Positions 4,801 through 12,361 of a stretch of 64,000 bases of DNA are shown here, in pieces (position 1 is the stretch's first letter; each line of letters begins with the position of its first letter). The notes beneath the pieces are model-generated. The model did no database searches and was not told where the DNA came from. It saw only the letters and a list, made by a program, of their open reading frames with translations. This DNA is from Chloroflexota bacterium (GTDB lineage: Bacteria > Chloroflexota > Anaerolineae > Anaerolineales > UBA4823), in assembly GCA_029265355.1 (NCBI GenBank), contig JAJUJL010000018.1:1-64000 (forward strand). Reading direction: 5' to 3'. A program made the position numbers and the translations under genes.

Positions 4801-5349
4801 CTGCTGGCAGACGCCATTCGCCGCATCAGCGGGCGCGGCGAGCTCCCGGCAGTCGCCAGCCCGTTGCGCCTACCCGGCGGCGAAGGCGCGCCTTTCGGAG
4901 CGCTCGCCCTGCCGGTCAATGTCGATCTGCCGCTGGCAGCGAGCATCCCCGCCGTTTACGTGCCCGATAAGAACATGCGCCTGCGCCTCTACCGCCGGCT
5001 GGCAGACACCCGCAACCTGGATGAGGTCAACGCCCTGGCAGAAGAATTCAAAGATCGCTTTGGAGAACTACCAGAAGCGGTCGAAAACTTGCTCTACCAA
5101 TTGCGCCTCAAGATCCTGGCGGAAAAAGCTGGCCTGACCAGCATCAGCGCCGAAAATGGCCAAATCGTGCTACGTTTCCCGGAGGGCGAACCACCGTTTT
5201 CAACGGCGGAGATCGGCCCCTACGCCCGCCTGGGAAAAACCGCCGTGTGGCTGCCCTACCGCAACCTGGCTGACTGGCAAACAGAAGTGCTGACCTTGCT
5301 TCAACGCCTGGCAAAATCTACAGAAAGCTCAGGACTGCCTGCAGGTTGA
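1831..5349 (+). CDS. mfd: Transcription-repair coupling factor
   Basis: Mfd removes RNA polymerase stalled at DNA lesions and recruits UvrA for repair. The 1172-residue length fits the family. An N-terminal UvrB-like part spans about 1-420. A CarD/RID RNA-polymerase-binding domain near residues 490-545 contains GDYVVHSDHGIGCYVG. The SF2 translocase follows, with Walker A GDVGYGKTEVAL, Walker B IIDEEQRFG, motif III TATPIPRTL and LRGRVGRGAQRAYAYFF. The C-terminal UvrA-inhibitory domain ends the protein. It follows pth closely, and its stop overlaps the start of the sugar transferase gene by one base (TGATG). Confidence 0.98.
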   Translation: MELTDLVQVISSGIADLAQCLEGASSRALGERLPALGLRRAARLPALAALYARFERPTILLTDRADRALALYDELELWAPDAPRALLPEPTPLFYENAPWGENTRRERITALTRMALYHIPGSPAPEKPPLLIAPARAVMARTLPRRDFLKAARSLRPGQQLNPEELARTLLALGYEPTHIVIATGQFARRGGLLDVWPHSDPQPTRIEFFGDEVDTLRAFHPATQRTAGTRSRLFIPPAREYLAPYGEASASEQGYCEFHLPLLHPEPATFLDYLPRQALVLVDNLQALQDTVTEVEEQAHGLRADYIKDGSLPADFPLPYLTWSELLDSLMRHNLLELGPPSAADSDEHGAAPALVNAPGEGCRGETGLAFAARFSPQPRFGGRVKPFMDQLVEIASHGQQAVVVSRQVSRLQELWAEQRLQTAIASSRKPEPAFIQGSLGEGWVFQSPDGELFHLFTDGEIFGWRRPEPRQRHRPVAEAPEAAYADLVAGDYVVHSDHGIGCYVGLVSRTIDGIEREYLCIEYAEQAQLYVPVHQADRVTRYVGPDGRTPTLSRLGGNEWRSTRAYVKEAVAEVAEELLDLYARRNLVQGYAFGPDSHWQQELEASFPYVETDDQMRVLAEVKADMERARPMDRLICGDVGYGKTEVALRAAFKAVMGGKQVAMLVPTTVLAQQHYTTFTQRLAAFPVEVEMLSRFRTPQQQSEIISRLANGSVDIVIGTHRLLSSDVTFKDLGLLIIDEEQRFGVSHKEALKRMRTEVDVLTLTATPIPRTLYMTLTGVRDISTINTPPEERLPIITHVGPYSPKIVRQAILRELERGGQVFFVHNRVQTIGAMRSHLAQLVPEARIAVAHGQMAETELSERMKEFTQGEVDVLLSTSIIESGLDIPNANTLIVDRADTFGLAQLYQLRGRVGRGAQRAYAYFFRHARRPPTPDGRQRLETISENTQLGAGFSIAMRDLEIRGAGELLGTRQSGHIAAVGFHLYTRLLADAIRRISGRGELPAVASPLRLPGGEGAPFGALALPVNVDLPLAASIPAVYVPDKNMRLRLYRRLADTRNLDEVNALAEEFKDRFGELPEAVENLLYQLRLKILAEKAGLTSISAENGQIVLRFPEGEPPFSTAEIGPYARLGKTAVWLPYRNLADWQTEVLTLLQRLAKSTESSGLPAG

Positions 5350-5993
5350 TGACCTCGACGCCGCCCAAACCCATCCCGACCTCCAAGCGTCTTTTCGACC
5401 TGGCGCTGACTATCCCGCTGCTGGCGCTGCTCTCTCCGCTGCTGCTGCTGTTGGCGATTCTTGTCCGCCTGGTGCACGGCAGCCCGGTGCTCTTCCGCCA
5501 GCAGCGTCCCGGCTACCTGGGGAAACCCTTCTTTATCTATAAATTCCGCAGCATGACCAACCAGCGCGACGCCGCCGGCGACTTGCTCCCGGATGCCCAG
5601 CGCCTCACCCGCCTGGGGCGCTTCCTGCGCGCCACCAGCCTGGATGAGTTGCCGGAGCTGTTCAACGTGCTGCGTGGCGAAATGAGCCTGGTCGGTCCGC
5701 GCCCGCTGCTCATGCAGTACCTGCCGCGCTACTCACCCGAGCAAGCGCGCCGCCACCACGTGCTGCCAGGTATCACCGGATGGGCGCAGGTCAACGGGCG
5801 CAATGCCATCACCTGGCAGGACAAGTTTCGCCTGGACACCTGGTACGTGGACAACTGGTCATTGCCCCTGGATGTCAAAATCCTGTGGCTCACTTTCGTC
5901 AAAGTGCTGAAGCGTGAAGGTATCAGCCAGCCCGGGCACGCTACCGCTGAAGAGTTCCTGGGCAACGATCCGCCGGGTGGAGGCGCGGTTTGA
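5349..5993 (+). CDS. Phosphoglycosyl transferase (PglC-like bacterial sugar transferase)
   Basis: Members of this family move a sugar-1-phosphate from a nucleotide sugar onto undecaprenyl phosphate, the first committed step of glycan assembly at the inner membrane face. The 214-residue size is that of the minimal PglC core. A re-entrant hydrophobic helix lies at about 15-42 ([20 protein letters not shown]). The catalytic DE pair sits in [20 protein letters not shown], followed by GPRPLL and [12 protein letters not shown]. The ATG at 5349 overlaps the mfd stop. A sugar aminotransferase and a PglD-like acyltransferase downstream suggest a modified amino-sugar substrate, which is inference. Confidence 0.93.
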
Positions 5994-7009
5994 GCGATTT
6001 AACCGGGTACTTCGCTGCCCTGGGCACAGCGCTGCTCTTCACGGCCACATCCGTGCAGTTCACCCTGGCAGGCCAACGGGTGGGCTCGTTGGTGCTCAAT
6101 CGCGTCCGCCTGGTCTTTGCCGTGGCCTGGCTGCTCATCGCCCATCTGATCTCAAGCTTTATCGGCCTCGATGGAGGTGAAGGGTTCCTGCCCCTGCTGC
6201 AAGCCGGGCCAGAACGCTGGTTTTGGTTGAGTCTATCAGGGATCGTGGGCCTGGTGATTGGCGACGCCTTTCTCTTTCAGGCCTTTCTGTGGGTCGGGCC
6301 GCGCCTGACGATGCTGATGATGTCCACCGTTCCCGTACAGACCACGCTGATCGCCTGGCTCTTCTTGGGTGAGCGCTTGAGACCACTGCAGCTCGCCGCC
6401 ATCCTGCTCACCGTGGGCGGCATTGCCTGGGTGGTCAACGACGGGCGTAAACGCCTGAAGAGCAACGCCAACGGAAACCAGGCACCGATCGGGGCGGCAG
6501 CGCCAGTCGCATCAACAGCCATCGCGCACCAGGCGCATCTGCAAACAGGAGCGGCCGCCGTCAGCAAGGACTTCACCCGCGGCATCCTGTTCGGATTGGG
6601 CGCCTCCATCGGTCAAGCCTCCGGGCTGGTGCTGGCTAAAGTTGGCGCGGTTGGCGGCTTCCCACCTCTCACTGGCACGCTGATCCGCATGCTTGCTGCG
6701 GTGGTGTTTATGTGGGCCATCACCCTTCTGCAGAGGCAGGCATGGCACACTTTGAAAAGCGTGCGCCACGACCGACGCGCCTTGCTTTTGATCACCAGCG
6801 GCTCGTTGACCGGACCTTTCCTGGGCGTTACCCTATCATTGCTGGCAGTCCAGTTAGCGCCGGTTGGGATTGCCAGCACGCTCATGGCGCTCACACCCGT
6901 GCTGCTGCTGCCGGTCAGCTACCTGGTCTTCGGCGAGCGCTTCGGCTGGCAGGCATGGGCTGGCACGCTCACCGCCCTGGCAGGCGTGACCCTGCTATTC
7001 ATGGTATGA
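5990..7009 (+). CDS. EamA/DMT-family membrane transporter
   Basis: This 339-residue protein has about ten hydrophobic helices in two EamA repeats (roughly 5-150 and 190-339), separated by a hydrophilic loop rich in Ala, Gly and Gln. The FLGERLRPLQLAAILLTVGG phrase and its second-half counterpart FGERFGWQAWAGTLTALAGV are typical of drug/metabolite transporters. The TTG start at 5990 has GGAGG six bases upstream and overlaps the stop of the sugar transferase gene, implying translational coupling. The substrate is unknown. Within a glycan-type cluster a role in moving a lipid-linked sugar or a precursor is possible but unproven. Confidence 0.9.
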   Translation: MSDLTGYFAALGTALLFTATSVQFTLAGQRVGSLVLNRVRLVFAVAWLLIAHLISSFIGLDGGEGFLPLLQAGPERWFWLSLSGIVGLVIGDAFLFQAFLWVGPRLTMLMMSTVPVQTTLIAWLFLGERLRPLQLAAILLTVGGIAWVVNDGRKRLKSNANGNQAPIGAAAPVASTAIAHQAHLQTGAAAVSKDFTRGILFGLGASIGQASGLVLAKVGAVGGFPPLTGTLIRMLAAVVFMWAITLLQRQAWHTLKSVRHDRRALLLITSGSLTGPFLGVTLSLLAVQLAPVGIASTLMALTPVLLLPVSYLVFGERFGWQAWAGTLTALAGVTLLFMV

Positions 7010-7029: not shown

Positions 7030-7935
7030 ATGACAGAAGCCAATCATTCACAGCATCGCTATCGCGCCCTGTATCGCATTCGCCGCTTTGAGGAGACGGT
7101 GTTGGAGAAATTTCCAACGGGTGTCTTCTTCGGCACCACCCACACTTACCTGGGGCAGGAAGCCAATGCCGTCGGCGTCCTGGAATGCCTGCAGCAGGGA
7201 GATATTGTCTTCAGCAACCATCGCTGCCACGGGCATTTCCTGGCCTATGGCGGGGATGCCCGCGCCCTGTTCGCCGAGCTGATGGGGCGGGCGACGGGTG
7301 TATGCGCTGGTAAGGGCGGCTCGCAGCATCTGCAATGGAAGAATTTCTATTCCAACGGCGTGCAGGGCGGCATCGCGCCGGTCGCTGTCGGCATGGCGCT
7401 GGCAGAAAAATTCAAGGGCTCGCCGGCGGTCACGGTTGTCTTCCTGGGAGATGGCACCCTGGGCGAAGGGGTGTTGTACGAAGCGCTCAACCTGGCATCC
7501 TTGTGGCGCGCCCCGCTGCTTTTCGTGCTGGAAAATAACCGCATCGCTCAAACCACCCCCCTCGAACTGGCTCTGGCGGGAGCTATCGCCGCCCGTTTCC
7601 AGGCTTTTGGCATTCCCTGCACTGAGTTGGACACTTCCGATGTCGAGCCCATCAACGCCGCGGCGCAAGAACTGCTGGGGCGCGTGCGCAGCGGCGACGG
7701 CCCACAGGCGCTGCTCTTGCACACCCAGCGCTTCGGCCCACATTCCAAAGGCGATGATACCCGCACTCCACAGGAGATCGAAAATTTGAAGCGCCAGCGC
7801 GATCCGCTGCCCATCCAGGCCGCCCGCCTCACGCCAGAATGGATTGCGCAGATCCAGGCCGAGGTCGATGCCGAGATCAGCGCTGCTTTTCAGCAAGCCC
7901 TGGCAGATCCTTTTCCCACTGCGGAGGCGCTCTAG
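7030..7935 (+). CDS. 2-oxoacid dehydrogenase E1 component, alpha subunit
   Basis: E1 alpha with E1 beta decarboxylates a 2-oxoacid on thiamine diphosphate and passes the acyl group to a lipoyl lysine. The 301-residue protein shows YRIRRFEETV at the N-terminus, HTYLGQEANAVGV, SNHRCHGHFLAYG, AGKGGSQHL, and the TPP/Mg motif GDGTLGEGVLYEALNLASLW ending in ENN. That is the standard PdhA/AcoA layout. The ATG at 7030 is chosen by fit to the family. An alternative ATG at 7006 overlaps the EamA stop and would add eight residues. The E2-like partner two genes downstream is not a normal E2, so the acyl acceptor may be a sugar amine. Confidence 0.93.
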   Translation: MTEANHSQHRYRALYRIRRFEETVLEKFPTGVFFGTTHTYLGQEANAVGVLECLQQGDIVFSNHRCHGHFLAYGGDARALFAELMGRATGVCAGKGGSQHLQWKNFYSNGVQGGIAPVAVGMALAEKFKGSPAVTVVFLGDGTLGEGVLYEALNLASLWRAPLLFVLENNRIAQTTPLELALAGAIAARFQAFGIPCTELDTSDVEPINAAAQELLGRVRSGDGPQALLLHTQRFGPHSKGDDTRTPQEIENLKRQRDPLPIQAARLTPEWIAQIQAEVDAEISAAFQQALADPFPTAEAL

Positions 7936-8999
7936 TGGCTATGCGCAGCGTTTTGGAATCGCTCAACCAGGGGCTGCTACGCGCCTTTACCGCCATTCCC
8001 AGTGTCTATCTGCTTGGCGAAGATGTCCTCGATCCCTACGGCGGCGCCTTCAAAGTCACCCGCGGCCTCTCCTCCGCCTTCCCACAGCGCGTCCTGACCA
8101 CGCCCATCTCCGAGGCCGGCATCACCGGCCTGGCAGCGGGCATGGCGCTGCGCGGCTTGCGCCCCGTTGTCGAGGTCATGTTTGGCGATTTCATCACCCT
8201 GATCGCTGACCAGGTGCTCAATCACCTGGCAAAATTTCGCTGGATGTACAATGAGCAGGTGACTGTGCCGGTGGTCATTCGCACGCCAATGGGCGGCCGG
8301 CGCGGCTATGGACCCACCCACAGCCAGACGTTGGAGAAGCACTTCATCGGCATGCCAGGCCTGCACGTGATTGCGCCGGCTGCCATCGGCGATCCTGGCG
8401 ATTTGCTCTACCAGGCCATCCACAAGACGCGCGACCCACTCTTGTTCATCGAGAACAAGCTGCTCTACCTGCTGCCGCTGCAAAGCGAGGAGCAAGCCGA
8501 TTTCACGATCGAGACGCTGCCCGGGGCAGACAAACCAGCCTGGAACGGTCTGCCAGAGAGCACCTTCCCAACCCCGTGTTACCGGCTGCGGGTGCGCGGT
8601 GCGCCGCCTGCAACGGTCACTCTGGCAGCTTATGGCTACATGGCGCATATCGCCCAGCAAGCCATGCTGGAGTTGGCCCTTGAGCATGAGCTGTTCTGCG
8701 AGCTGATTGTGCCCACCCGCCTGGCGCCGGTCGCCGCCGGCGAGATTCGCGCCAGCGTAGCCAGGACCCAGCGCCTGCTGGTGCTCGAGGAGGGGACTCG
8801 CGCTCTGGGCTGGGGAGCTGAAGTCCTGGCCCAGGTGGCCGAAGCGCCTGGCGCTGGCTTGAGGGCAGCTGCCCGCCTGGCGGCGCTGGACCTGCCCGTC
8901 CCCGCTTCCGGCGCCCTGGAAGCGCTTGTGCTCCCTGGCGCGCCAGAAGTCATCGCTGCCGCCCTGAAACTGGCAGAAAAACAAACCCTGTCAATCTAA
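7935..8999 (+). CDS. 2-oxoacid dehydrogenase E1 component, beta subunit
   Basis: The 354-residue product pairs with the alpha subunit just upstream. Recognisable E1 beta blocks are LLGEDVLDPYGGAFKVTRGL, TPISEAGITGLAAGMAL, GLRPVVEVMFGDFITLIADQ, NHLAKFRWMYN, IRTPMGGRRGYGPTHSQ and PGLHVIAPA, followed by the C-terminal transketolase-like domain. A GTG start at 7935 sits seven bases after GGAGG and shares a base with the previous TAG. An ATG at 7941 is the alternative. The 2-oxoacid used cannot be read from sequence. No E3 (lipoamide dehydrogenase) or ordinary E2 gene is nearby. Confidence 0.93.
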   Translation: MAMRSVLESLNQGLLRAFTAIPSVYLLGEDVLDPYGGAFKVTRGLSSAFPQRVLTTPISEAGITGLAAGMALRGLRPVVEVMFGDFITLIADQVLNHLAKFRWMYNEQVTVPVVIRTPMGGRRGYGPTHSQTLEKHFIGMPGLHVIAPAAIGDPGDLLYQAIHKTRDPLLFIENKLLYLLPLQSEEQADFTIETLPGADKPAWNGLPESTFPTPCYRLRVRGAPPATVTLAAYGYMAHIAQQAMLELALEHELFCELIVPTRLAPVAAGEIRASVARTQRLLVLEEGTRALGWGAEVLAQVAEAPGAGLRAAARLAALDLPVPASGALEALVLPGAPEVIAAALKLAEKQTLSI

Positions 9000-9007
9000 A
9001 CACAGCC

Positions 9008-10120
9008 ATGGCGAATGCCGTTATCATTCCCCTCTTGAATCCCAACGAACCCGAAGCTGTGCTTGCCGGGCTCCATGTGCGCCCTGGTCAGCAAGTGCAG
9101 CCCGGCGATCTGCTGTGCACGCTGGAGACCACGAAATCCACCGCCGAAGTGCTCGCTGAGAGCGGCGGCTTCGTCGTCGCATTGCAGGCCGAGCCAGGGC
9201 AAACACTGCGCGCCGGGGATACGCTGTGCTACCTGGCAGAGACGCCGGATTGGCTTCCATCCTCGGCTGCCGCTCAACCCTCGCACCCACCCCCGCCGAA
9301 CCAGGTTCCCGGCGGGCTGCGCCTGACGCGCAAAGCCCAAAACCTGGCAGGCAAATTGGGCCTGAACCTGGCAGAGTTGCTCGCCCAGGGCCGTCTCTCC
9401 CCGGAAACTTTGGTCACCGAAGCGCTTCTGCGCCAACTGGCCGGCAGCGCCGCTGCAGACTCGCCATTGCCTGCCATCCCAATCAATGCACGCAACCTGG
9501 TCATTTACGGCGGCGGCGGTCACGGCAAAGCGCTCATTGACCTGTTGCGCACTTTGGGAGATTATGACATCGTCGGCATCATAGACGACGGGATGCCCGT
9601 CGGCAAGCTGGTGATGGGCGTACCGGTGTTAGGCGGCAGCGCGCGGCTGGCCGAGTTGCGCCACCAGGGCGTAGCGCTGGCAGTCAACGCCGTGGGCGGC
9701 ATCGGCAATGTCTCCGTGCGCGTGCGCGTCTTCGAGCGCCTGCAGCAGGCGGGCTTTACCTGCCCACCTGTGGTGCACCCCACTGCTTTTGTGGAGCCCT
9801 CTGCCAGCCTGTCGCCCGGTGTGCAGGTCTTCCCCTTGGCCTACATCGGCTCCGAAGTCGAGGTCGGCTTTGGCAGCATCGTCAATACCGGAGCGATCGT
9901 TTCGCACGACTGCCGCATCGCCGCCTATGCCAACATCTCGCCCGGCGCAATCCTGGCAGGGGGGGTGCAGGTGGGTGAACGCGCCCTGGTGGGCATGGGC
10001 GCCACCCTCAATCTTCAAGTGCAGGTTGGGGCCGGAGCGCGCATCGGCAACGGCGCCACCGTCAAACAGGATGTACCGGAGAATGGCCTGGTGCGCGCTG
10101 GCGCGGTGTGGCCGGAATAA
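9008..10120 (+). CDS. Lipoyl domain - E3/E1-binding domain - PglD/NeuD-like acyltransferase fusion
   Basis: This 370-residue protein joins parts that normally belong to different systems. Residues 1-80 form a lipoyl/biotinyl carrier domain with the attachment lysine at about K43 (LETTKSTAEV). A Pro-rich linker (about 88-101) follows, then a peripheral subunit-binding domain (about 102-145, LTRKAQNLAGKLGLNLAELL). Residues 160-370 are a NeuD/PglD-type acyltransferase: a Rossmann-like start NLVIYGGGGHGKALIDLL, then left-handed beta-helix repeats with the probable catalytic His near 300 (IVNTGAIVSHDCRI). An ordinary E2 would instead carry a chloramphenicol-acetyltransferase-like domain. I infer that E1 loads the lipoyl arm with an acyl group, which the beta-helix domain transfers to an amino sugar. 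Confidence 0.88.
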   Translation: MANAVIIPLLNPNEPEAVLAGLHVRPGQQVQPGDLLCTLETTKSTAEVLAESGGFVVALQAEPGQTLRAGDTLCYLAETPDWLPSSAAAQPSHPPPPNQVPGGLRLTRKAQNLAGKLGLNLAELLAQGRLSPETLVTEALLRQLAGSAAADSPLPAIPINARNLVIYGGGGHGKALIDLLRTLGDYDIVGIIDDGMPVGKLVMGVPVLGGSARLAELRHQGVALAVNAVGGIGNVSVRVRVFERLQQAGFTCPPVVHPTAFVEPSASLSPGVQVFPLAYIGSEVEVGFGSIVNTGAIVSHDCRIAAYANISPGAILAGGVQVGERALVGMGATLNLQVQVGAGARIGNGATVKQDVPENGLVRAGAVWPE

Positions 10121-10138
10121 AAAAAAATGGAGGTCAGT

Positions 10139-11353
10139 TTGAGTCAAAACACCGTCACTTTTCAGGTACCCATGTCCTCGCCAGACGTGAGCGACGCTGA
10201 GCGTGAGGCGGTTGCGGCTGTGCTGCGCACCCCCAACCTGAGCATGGGACCGGAGATATCCGCTTTCGAGCGCGCCTTCGAGGCCTACAGCGGTGCACGT
10301 CACGCCATCGGTGTCAGCTCGGGTACCGCCGGGTTGCACCTGTGCGTGCGCGCCGCCGGCATCGGCGCTGGCTCGCACCTGCCCGGCAACCAAACCACCG
10401 ACCTGGCCATCACCACGCCCTTTTCGTTCGTCGCCTCAACCAATGTGCTGCTCTTCGAGCACGCTGCCCCGGTTTTCGTCGATGTCGACCCGCTCACGGG
10501 CAACATCGACCCGGCCCTGGTGCAGGCTGCCGCAAACGATCTTCTCGAGGGAGGCCAGGCAGCTAAACGCTGGCTGCCGCGCCTGGGCATCGCCGAGAAC
10601 TATGCCCTAAAAGCCATCCTGCCGGTGGATGTCTTCGGACAACCGGCGGATATGGACGCCATCCTGACCACCGCCCGACAGTACAGGCTGGCGGTGATCG
10701 AAGATTCTTGCGAGGCGCTGGGCGCAGCCTACAAAGGACGCCTGGCTGGCACGCTGGGCGACTGCGGCGTGTACGCCTTTTATCCCAACAAGCAAATCAC
10801 CACCGGCGAAGGCGCTATCATCGTTACCAATGACGATCACGCCGCGGGCATGATGCGTGCGCTGCGCAACCAGGGACGCGCCCCCGGAGATACCTGGCTG
10901 CAGCACACCCACCTGGGCTACAACTACCGCCTGGATGAAATGAGCGCGGCTCTAGGGCGTGTTCAGCTTTCCCGCCTGGAGGAGCTGCTGGCGCGGCGCG
11001 AGCGGGTGGCTGGCTGGTATGGTGAACGCCTGGCGGAAATCCCCGGCGTGCGCGCGCCCGAGGTGGTTGCCAGCACCACCCGTATGAGCTGGTTTGTGTA
11101 CGTGGTGCGCTTCGATCCGGGCATCGATCGCGACGCAGTCGCTGCCCGTTTGGAAGCGCAGGGTATCCCCGCCCGCCCGTATTTCTTGCCCATCCACCTG
11201 CAACCCTACATGGTGGAGCGTTTCGGCTTTCGCCCCGGCGATTACCCGGTCACCGAAGACCTGGGAAAGCGCAGCCTGGCGTTGCCATTTTCTGGCGTCA
11301 TGTCTGAAGCGCAAGTTGAGCTTGTGTGCCGCTCCTTGCAAAAGTCTCTCTGA
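10139..11353 (+). CDS. DegT/DnrJ/EryC1/StrS-type sugar aminotransferase
   Basis: This PLP enzyme family aminates keto-sugar nucleotides. The protein shows GVSSGTAGLHLCVRAAGIG, TTPFSFVASTNVLLFEHAAP, DVFGQPADM, VIEDSCEALGAAYKG and the Schiff-base lysine in YAFYPNKQITTGEGAII. The C-terminal ARPYFLPIHLQPYM region is also typical. An extra segment (about residues 125-155) separates the usual DID-type and DVFG blocks. The TTG at 10139 is chosen because GGAGGT lies at 10129-10134. An ATG at 10127 would place that site inside the gene and has none of its own. The gene follows the acyltransferase fusion, matching the aminate-then-acylate order of PglE/PglD pathways. Confidence 0.93.
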   Translation: MSQNTVTFQVPMSSPDVSDAEREAVAAVLRTPNLSMGPEISAFERAFEAYSGARHAIGVSSGTAGLHLCVRAAGIGAGSHLPGNQTTDLAITTPFSFVASTNVLLFEHAAPVFVDVDPLTGNIDPALVQAAANDLLEGGQAAKRWLPRLGIAENYALKAILPVDVFGQPADMDAILTTARQYRLAVIEDSCEALGAAYKGRLAGTLGDCGVYAFYPNKQITTGEGAIIVTNDDHAAGMMRALRNQGRAPGDTWLQHTHLGYNYRLDEMSAALGRVQLSRLEELLARRERVAGWYGERLAEIPGVRAPEVVASTTRMSWFVYVVRFDPGIDRDAVAARLEAQGIPARPYFLPIHLQPYMVERFGFRPGDYPVTEDLGKRSLALPFSGVMSEAQVELVCRSLQKSL

Positions 11354-11365
11354 TCAGGAGGTTTT

Positions 11366-12361
11366 ATGAACTTCGCGATGTGGGCTAAAGCCCTTCAAAT
11401 CATCCCCCACGTCAGCCAGGACGAGTGGAAACGCCTGGATGTCATCTCCAAATGGCTGATTTCCACCCGCGCCGCTGTGTTGGTAATGACCTTCCTCTCA
11501 GCCGCCATCGCTGGTGTGTTGGCTTTCCAGCAAGGGGATTTCCATTTTGGGATCTGGATATTGGTGGCACTGGGTTTGATCCTGGCGCATGCCACCAATA
11601 ACCTGCTCAATGATTTTACCGACTATGTGCGCGGGGTGGACCAGGATAACTACTACCGCAGCCAGTATGGCCCGCAGCCTCTGGTGCATGGCTTGATGTC
11701 CCGCCGCCAGTTGCTCACTTACGCCGCAGTGACCGGAGCGCTGGCGCTGGCCGCCGGCGCCAGCTTGGTCCACCTGCGCGGGGGACTGACGCTGCTGCTC
11801 TTGGGCGCTGGCGCCTTTTTCGTCTTGTTCTACACCTTCCCTCTCAAATACATCGCCCTGGGAGAAATCGCTGTGCTGATCGTTTGGGGACCGCTGATGG
11901 TCGGCGGCGGCTACTATGAGATCACCGGCGCCTGGGACTGGAACGTGGTCATCGCCTCGCTGCCCTATGCTCTGGGCGTGACTGGCGTCATTTTCGGCAA
12001 GCACATCGATAAATACGAGATGGATCGCGCCAAGCGCATCTTCACCCTGCCTGTGGTGCTTGGCGAGCGCACTTCACGCTATGCCATTCTCGGCATGCTG
12101 GTGCTGCAATATCTTTCCGTGCTCTACCTGGTGCTGACCGGCTTTTTCTCGCCGCTCTTGTTGATCGTCTTCCTGGCATTGACAGAATTCTTCCGCATTC
12201 TGCCTATGTTCCGTGCGCCAAAGCCGGCTGAAAAACCCGCCGGTTACCCGGATGTTTGGCCCAACTATTTTGTCGCCGCAGCCTTTGTTCACAACCGCCG
12301 CTTTGGCATACTGTATTTAGTGGGCCTGATCGCCAACGTCGTCTTGGGTTTATTCATCTAA
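11366..12361 (+). CDS. UbiA-family prenyltransferase
   Basis: UbiA enzymes attach a polyprenyl chain to an aromatic or other acceptor within the membrane. The 331-residue protein has about eight or nine transmembrane helices. The first Asp-rich motif is NNLLNDFTDYVRGVDQD and the second is HIDKYEMDRAKR, both placed where UbiA/MenA proteins bind Mg-prenyl-diphosphate. AGGAGGT lies just before the ATG. It is most like MenA-type proteins, but the acceptor cannot be named from sequence. It is the last gene before a strong terminator, so it shares the transcript of the sugar/acyl module. Confidence 0.88.
   Translation: MNFAMWAKALQIIPHVSQDEWKRLDVISKWLISTRAAVLVMTFLSAAIAGVLAFQQGDFHFGIWILVALGLILAHATNNLLNDFTDYVRGVDQDNYYRSQYGPQPLVHGLMSRRQLLTYAAVTGALALAAGASLVHLRGGLTLLLLGAGAFFVLFYTFPLKYIALGEIAVLIVWGPLMVGGGYYEITGAWDWNVVIASLPYALGVTGVIFGKHIDKYEMDRAKRIFTLPVVLGERTSRYAILGMLVLQYLSVLYLVLTGFFSPLLLIVFLALTEFFRILPMFRAPKPAEKPAGYPDVWPNYFVAAAFVHNRRFGILYLVGLIANVVLGLFI

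Follow-up and report, generated by a model that had tools for sequence, protein, structure and literature searches.

Lipoyl arms are known to hand acyl groups to CoA or to a carrier protein. In the 2-oxoacid dehydrogenase E2 proteins, a lipoyl domain is followed by a flexible linker, a peripheral-subunit-binding domain (PSBD), and a catalytic domain from a family whose members form trimers, and E1 genes lie directly upstream. The protein described here (the fusion) shares this arrangement, with a PSBD-like domain, but has no E2 core (PF00198) and carries an unrelated beta-helix sugar acyltransferase in its place. Acyl groups bound to a carrier protein are also used by LpxA and LpxD, which are beta-helix acyltransferases acting on UDP-amino sugars; their carrier is a phosphopantetheinyl ACP in trans, whereas that of the fusion is a lipoyl domain in cis. 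In modules of the RenH/RenI type, with which we provisionally count NapB/NapD as E1/lipoyl-E2 modules, a lipoyl protein beside the E1 feeds a special acceptor, and RenH and related E1s form one clade with those found here. RenI and the lipoyl proteins at the related loci L276 and L277 keep the E2 core, unlike the fusion, and the acceptor of the RenH/L277 type is a carrier protein (for the Nap type, according to PMC7570522), whereas the proposed acceptor of the fusion is a sugar amine. In PMC7570522, the dnacin paper, which cites Peng 2012, NapB/NapD homologues are described as transferring a hydroxyethyl unit from xylulose-5-phosphate to a carrier protein.

The acyltransferase portion of the fusion resembles PglD, PerB, and the C-terminal domain of N. 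gonorrhoeae PglB in its fold, Asp-Asp pair, catalytic His, and PglC- and PglE-like neighbours. It differs from these enzymes, which use acetyl-CoA, by its lipoyl arm, PSBD, and dedicated E1s and by the lack of a GxPA[KR] turn. PMC8040287 describes enzymes of the PglD kind as trimeric, with an Asp pair (matching D193 D194 of the fusion) to which the nucleotide is bound in PglD and Pcryo_0637, a His (matching H300) that acts as the base in PglD-type enzymes, and a proline in the C-terminal turn of PglD homologues that goes cis with CoA. No fusion of a lipoyl domain with a sugar acyltransferase was found described in the openly licensed literature, although this is no proof of absence. A sequence-only reading of this DNA knew of no such system either. 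The "lipoylation" of flagellin glycans in PMC4875605 refers to fatty acid chains. Each part of the system is thus known, and the combination is new as far as seen in the openly licensed literature.

The window, a stretch of 64,000 nucleotides, corresponds to contig C44 of genome G000 (5.05 Mb, 64 contigs) and includes a run of six genes in the same direction:

5346..5993, + strand: PglC-like monotopic phosphoglycosyl transferase (Bac_transf), 215 aa (Pfam PF02397, 8.2e-65)
5990..7009, + strand: EamA-type transporter, 339 aa (Pfam PF00892, 3.8e-30)
7030..7935, + strand: dedicated E1alpha, 301 aa (Pfam E1_dh, 2.3e-54)
7941..8999, + strand: dedicated E1beta, 352 aa (Pfam Transket_pyr, 3.6e-28; Transketolase_C, 5e-15)
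9008..10120, + strand: lipoyl-PSBD-PglD fusion, 370 aa (Pfam, NCBIfam, AlphaFold2, structure alignment)
10127..11353, + strand: DegT-family 4-aminotransferase, PglE/perosamine-synthase-like (PF01041, 6.2e-102)

The gaps from E1alpha to E1beta, the fusion, and the aminotransferase are 5, 8, and 6 bases, and one transcript is therefore likely. The best PDB match of the PglC-like protein was 8g1n, an N,N'-diacetylbacillosaminyl-1-phosphate transferase (9.4e-64), and the aminotransferase matched perosamine synthetase 3bn1 at 4.4e-71. The E1 genes directly upstream and the sugar aminotransferase directly downstream (gap of 6 bases), which the sequence-only reading had pointed out, were confirmed in the window. 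That reading had also proposed a search for the five-gene neighbourhood in other genomes. The E1alpha-E1beta-fusion part does recur, while the DegT gene lay directly 3' of the fusion in only 18 of the 69 fusions with at least 700 bases downstream; because of this, the constant core is E1alpha-E1beta-fusion and not five genes. Among the 51 fusion loci with at least 4 kb upstream, 36 had a PglC-like gene in the same orientation no more than 5 kb away, and the EamA gene occurs in only some relatives (also L080, L083, L145, and L150). A MenA-like UbiA prenyltransferase gene lies 3' of the operon (window 11366-12361), with no evident link to the sugar pathway; 12 of 74 fusion loci, all of family f1, carry it on the same strand. 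Some operons contain inserted genes. E1beta and the fusion are separated by a gene for a beta-propeller/zinc-ribbon protein at L075 (L075:6471-7769), and E1alpha and E1beta by one for a TPR-histidine-kinase protein at L080 (L080:4656-6638); a gene for a long protein occupies the corresponding place at L087 (L087:1882-3786).

The domains and candidate functional residues of the fusion are as follows:

9008..9247, + strand: lipoyl domain, residues 1-80 (Pfam Biotin_lipoyl, residues 20-76, 1.2e-9)
9134..9136, + strand: codon of the lipoyl-lysine candidate K43 (ETTK), lysine in 72/72 main-clade fusions
9314..9454, + strand: peripheral-subunit-binding-like domain with a shortened loop, residues about 103-149 (hhalign, predicted helices)
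9494..9742, + strand: PglD N-terminal (nucleotide-sugar) domain, residues 163-245, with D193 D194 (PF17836, 3.3e-14)
9764..10117, + strand: left-handed beta-helix acyltransferase domain, residues 253-370 (structure alignment of part 157-370)
9905..9907, + strand: codon of the catalytic base candidate H300, at the aligned position of the PerB and PglD His

The best AlphaFold2 model of the fusion (mean pLDDT 92.3, pTM 0.61; 77.9-81.4 for the other four models) predicted a barrel-sandwich domain at residues 1-80, a floppy linker, three helices at 108-149, a second linker, and a bilobal PglD fold. In a Foldseek search, the N-terminal model matched the L2 domain of pyruvate dehydrogenase (PDH) E2 (3crk_C; E 2.1e-6, rmsd 1.5 over 78 columns). 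The top two Foldseek rows cover 177 and 183 columns of ODO2/ODP2 models at an rmsd above 25 and are no proof of a PSBD. Pfam E3_binding was not matched in the window protein at a limit of 0.1, and it was matched in one of 38 aligned members, at 0.003. Since a PSBD call on Pfam alone was too weak, a profile-profile comparison with a reversed control was used instead. In a single hhalign comparison, the PSBD-like region of 72 members matched the PSBDs of ordinary E2s at 94.7% (E 5.6e-8), and the reversed-alignment control gave 0.2%; the 13 reference PSBDs were those found by motif search in 15 of 20 fetched E2 loci from related genomes. These profiles and the predicted helices together identify the three-helix region as a PSBD whose loop is shortened.

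In the remaining part of the protein, NCBIfam TIGR03570 (NeuD/PglB/VioB sugar N-acyltransferases) scored 183.6 bits at residues 163-362 against a cut-off of 160.8, and Pfam Hexapep was matched at residues 319-353 (6.6e-11). Structure alignment of part 157-370 gave Z scores of 30.9 with PerB (4eab), 30.0 with N. gonorrhoeae PglB, and 27.0 with C. jejuni PglD (3bsy), and the LpxD-ACP entries 4ihf, 4ihg, and 4ihh were also among its structure matches. The E2 catalytic core PF00198 was matched neither in the window protein nor among the families matched in 38 members. The assignment of the rear part to PglD/NeuD-type acyltransferases in the sequence-only reading therefore holds (TIGR03570 over its cut-off, Z of 27-31 with the PerB/PglD fold), as does its statement that this part stands where ordinary E2 has a CoA-using domain (PF00198 absent). 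Its view of residues 1-145 as the front of an E2 was right as to the lipoyl and PSBD-like domains, and only the bounds shifted, to about 1-80 and 104-149, with PglD at 160-370.

The lysine at the K43 position is also present in the three outlying fusions L043, L044, and L133. Of the 72 main-clade fusions, 69 have ETTK as their lipoyl motif and three have ESTK. Both D193 and D194 occur in all 72. The sequence-only reading had placed a putative catalytic His near residue 300. H300, found in alignments at the position of the PerB and PglD His, is conserved in 68 of the 69 fusions reaching that position and is replaced by Q in L109. From the feature described in PMC8040287, we chose GxPA[KR] as the motif for scoring the C-terminal turn. 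This turn was found in 0/69 fusions reaching it and in 0/9 lipoyl-less relatives, while it was kept in 14 of 18 outside PglD-like proteins and in L043 and L044. Its absence would fit CoA independence but is weak evidence because all nine lipoyl-less relatives lack it as well; for the same reason, we rejected the loss of the turn as proof of CoA independence. The lipoyl-less relatives keep D193, D194, and H300 (9/9). They differ from the fusions at position 327 (L in 69/69 fusions, Q in 9/9 lipoyl-less proteins), at position 294 (T in 69/69 and 0/9, respectively), and at position 275 (mostly F in fusions, L in 9/9). These differences are suggestive and may reflect common descent.

Besides the window protein, 74 fusions had an ORF of at least 200 aa, and 58 of them had at least 3 kb upstream. 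Both E1alpha and E1beta were encoded on the same strand within 5 kb in 55 of these 58, and E1beta in 57. In contrast, neither E1 was found near any of the nine lipoyl-less relatives, each with at least 3 kb upstream; L137, the tenth "unfused" row, whose sequence begins at a contig end, was left out of this count. The Fisher p value for the association of the lipoyl domain with the E1s was 5e-9, a figure that ignores kinship. Among the exceptions, G477 and G484 have a dedicated E1alpha elsewhere in the genome (71% and 68% identity), and G402 has no E1alpha above 37%. The fusion of G402 is L109, the one with Q at H300, and it looks as if the system were decaying there. In G487, the fusion begins 50 bases from the contig end, and no dedicated E1alpha was found in this genome (best E 2.3e-4; 80% complete). 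A dedicated E1beta was detected in all 13 fusion genomes searched (100% identity for the window's own, 55-67% for the others), whereas in the nine lipoyl-less genomes the best E1beta match was 45% identical over part of its length, and three gave none. L040 has a degenerate lipoyl-like stretch without the lysine and no dedicated-type E1 in its 18 kb, and L139-L141 show the gene order PglC-PglD-PglE-like without E1s and lipoyl domain. Thus, as read from these genomes, the lipoyl domain and the E1 pair are present together and absent together with this acyltransferase. In a side observation, neither an E1beta match nor an E2 core was seen in the lipoyl-less genomes G176, G520, and G547, although each had a lipoamide dehydrogenase over the cut-off; G176 and G547 were also without LipA over the cut-off.

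A 47-row tree, which kept 38 of the 69 main-clade fusion rows and left out L137, L133, L043, L044, and the outgroups, split the nine lipoyl-less proteins into two groups nested among the fusions, and a single clade was not rejected (p-AU 0.35). In a 100-row tree, two changes accounted for the ten "unfused" rows, one of them due to the contig-edge fragment L137 and one covering the other nine. Two independent lipoyl losses were therefore not retained as a firm claim. Only one or two events of loss lie behind the association statistics, and the joint absence may be a single one.

Genome searches for the fusion covered the phylum Chloroflexota. Among the matches listed in an alignment search, full-length fusions (a match from model position 20 or earlier to 363 or later) were found in 70 of 201 genomes of the order, including the window genome and the diverged G563. 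These full-length matches rule out a sequencing error joining two genes. Nine full-length fusions were among the matches listed for an even draw of 400 Chloroflexota genomes. In a genome scan, the best 80 of 141 relatives were all assigned by their names to Anaerolineales or other Chloroflexota. Among them, membership of the phylum was confirmed for Ca. Aquidulcis, and Brevefilum is presumably a member as well. No full-length fusion was found on plasmids in sets of 75 and 14 records (0/75 and 0/14). The 89 loci examined comprised full-length matches, contig-edge or broken copies, and lipoyl-less relatives, together with L043 and L044.

The E1s of the window share the E1_dh and transketolase domains with pyruvate dehydrogenase E1, but the window E1alpha scored only 240.6 bits against TIGR03182 (pyruvate E1alpha), below the PDH equivalog cut-off of 393.85. 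In both the E1alpha and the E1beta tree, E1s of the window's kind (18 rows plus L133) fell in a clade with 100/100 support together with four outside E1s: RenH from a renieramycin plasmid, L277 from an annotated Streptomyces NRPS cluster, L276 from S. cattleyicolor, and L302 from Nonomuraea. On the opposite side of the trees were 24 ordinary E1s, including some from the same genomes, and the E1s of G158 and G302. NapB and NapD were absent from these trees. The dedicated E1s thus appear to share a clade with E1s of specialised-metabolite clusters, apart from the ordinary E1s, in trees with four outside rows and a long-branch warning for E1alpha. The motif RGYGPTHSQ, present in the window E1beta, was found in 69/70 dedicated E1betas, 3/4 outside clade members, and 0/25 other sequences; GGSQH of E1alpha was found in 59/60, 4/4, and 1/25, respectively.

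An ACP gene lies beside the E1 at L277, and a KASIII-like gene adjoins the E1 at L276. The latter locus, on pSCAT of Streptantibioticus cattleyicolor (L276:2691-7095), encodes a KASIII-like protein, both E1 subunits, and a lipoyl-E2 protein, adjoins a long frame that resembles a PKS by eye and has no features in the gene table, and is likely to be a carrier-loading module. E1alpha and E1beta are joined in one open frame of 1.7-2.1 kb at L083, L084, L085, L086, L088, L110, L115, L121, and L129, and a single frame is also found in RenH. Roseobacter plasmids (L310:4698-11709, L311, L312, and L313) carry an E1alpha-E1beta-lipoyl protein-aldehyde dehydrogenase-E2 cluster near solute/sugar uptake genes, and the lipoyl domain there is 37-43% identical to that of the window. 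We take RenH to be an E1 of the NapB/NapD type, a carrier-loading enzyme for a ketose-derived C2 unit. Because the dedicated E1s are kin of RenH-type E1s, glycolyl is our favoured candidate for the acyl group, a reasoned guess by analogy that is quite possibly wrong.

Two genomes, G158 and G302, gave the only full-length matches of a second lineage among the matches listed for 150 genomes of the class. In G158, the gene order is fusion-E1alpha-E1beta-DegT, the E1s come from the ordinary side of the trees, and the fusion has the lipoyl motif ETDK and keeps the CoA turn. In G302, the contig that carries the fusion is short and has no E1; a related E1 pair is encoded on a different contig. A further outlier, L133 of G563, combines E1s with a lipoyl domain whose acyltransferase partner has diverged strongly (25% identical), and genes for a UDP-sugar dehydrogenase and for two GFO/IDH/MocA oxidoreductases occur nearby; besides the known fusions, no further full-length L133-like protein was found among 400 genomes of the phylum. 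From these sequences, lipoyl domains and sugar acyltransferases seem to have been joined in company with E1s at least twice in Chloroflexota.

Of eight genomes searched for LipA, five (G000, G538, G417, G168, and G490) scored over the cut-off and three (G104, G176, and G547) did not; E3 was over its cut-off in 21 of 22 genomes. G000 has E2 cores at five places, none of them on the window contig, and each of its other E1beta places has an E2 core within about 3 kb. A PglF-like dehydratase domain is present in a 649-aa frame on contig C49 of G000. The remaining steps of the proposed route therefore have candidate genes in this genome.

We consider it very likely that the E1s, the lipoyl arm, and the PglD domain form one coupled pathway. 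In this pathway, a 2-oxo acid or a ketose phosphate would supply E1 and its thiamine diphosphate with an acyl unit, and E1 would use it for the reductive acylation of lipoamide on the presumably lipoylated K43. The PSBD-like domain would hold E1, and probably also the shared E3 of the cell, beside a PglD trimer occupying the place of the E2 trimer. The lipoyl arm would swing into the beta-helix active site, where H300 would let the 4-amino group of a nucleotide sugar, supplied by the PglE-like aminotransferase, attack the acyl-lipoyl thioester. E3 would reoxidise the arm, and the PglC-like enzyme would move the N-acylated sugar phosphate onto a lipid carrier. For beta-helix acyltransferases such as LpxA and LpxD, a carrier protein can serve as acyl donor, and trimers are formed by E2 cores as well as by PglD; docking of the lipoyl arm at the groove of the trimer is therefore plausible. 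We regard it as probable from the sequence evidence that the E1-lipoyl module directly charges a bacillosamine-type N-acyltransferase in this way, with CoA-free transfer to the sugar. The sequence-only reading, which proposed a CoA-independent route from a 2-oxoacid through acyl-lipoyl to an N-acyl amino sugar, is thus partly supported, by the pairing of lipoyl domain and E1s and by the conserved nucleotide-site and catalytic residues; the 2-oxoacid donor and the independence from CoA are putative.

The conservation described above would look alike if the arm passed its acyl group to CoA first. In such a channelled route, the lipoyl arm would be charged by E1, a free E2 or the PglD domain would transfer the acyl group to CoA, and PglD would use the acyl-CoA, so that the fusion merely keeps donor and acceptor close. 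PglD, PerB, and Pcryo_0637 are indeed CoA enzymes according to PDB titles and PMC8040287, other contigs of G000 encode ordinary E2 cores, and the CoA turn motif is retained by L043 and L044 of the second lineage. However, the window contig has no E2 core, the CoA-responsive turn is missing in 69/69 fusions reaching it, though also in the lipoyl-less relatives, and a dedicated E1 beside the ordinary ones would be hard to explain if any acyl-CoA served; we consider this route unlikely.

A purely structural or regulatory lipoyl domain (docking or redox sensing), with PglD using cytosolic acyl-CoA, appears quite improbable. The domain can be lost while D193, D194, and H300 stay (9/9 lipoyl-less relatives), as such a role would allow, but K43 is invariant in 72/72 fusions, is missing in L040, which is also without E1s, and the E1 pair is conserved beside the fusion. 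That the N-terminal domain carries biotin and the adjacency of the E1s is unrelated is hardly credible. Pfam Biotin_lipoyl does not separate biotin from lipoyl domains, and Foldseek gave many biotin carriers alongside lipoyl domains; yet biotin domains carry an MKM motif, whereas the motif here is E[TS]TK, a PSBD-like domain follows as in E2, and E1 genes adjoin.

Direct transfer from the lipoyl arm to the sugar, if true, would place acyl-lipoyl beside acyl-CoA and acyl-ACP as an acyl donor in glycan biosynthesis and would show that the E2 core is exchangeable. We lean slightly towards the broader statement as a whole, namely that acyl-lipoyl is a further donor for sugar N-acylation, that the E2 core has been replaced by a left-handed beta-helix N-acyltransferase, that an unusual N-acyl sugar of the bacillosamine type, for example an N-glycolyl one, is made without CoA, and that such systems were assembled at least twice in Chloroflexota. 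The system lends itself to direct tests on three proteins, with a single candidate lysine, a single histidine, and lipoyl-less relatives as natural controls, and the finding points to unexplored glycan chemistry in Anaerolineales.
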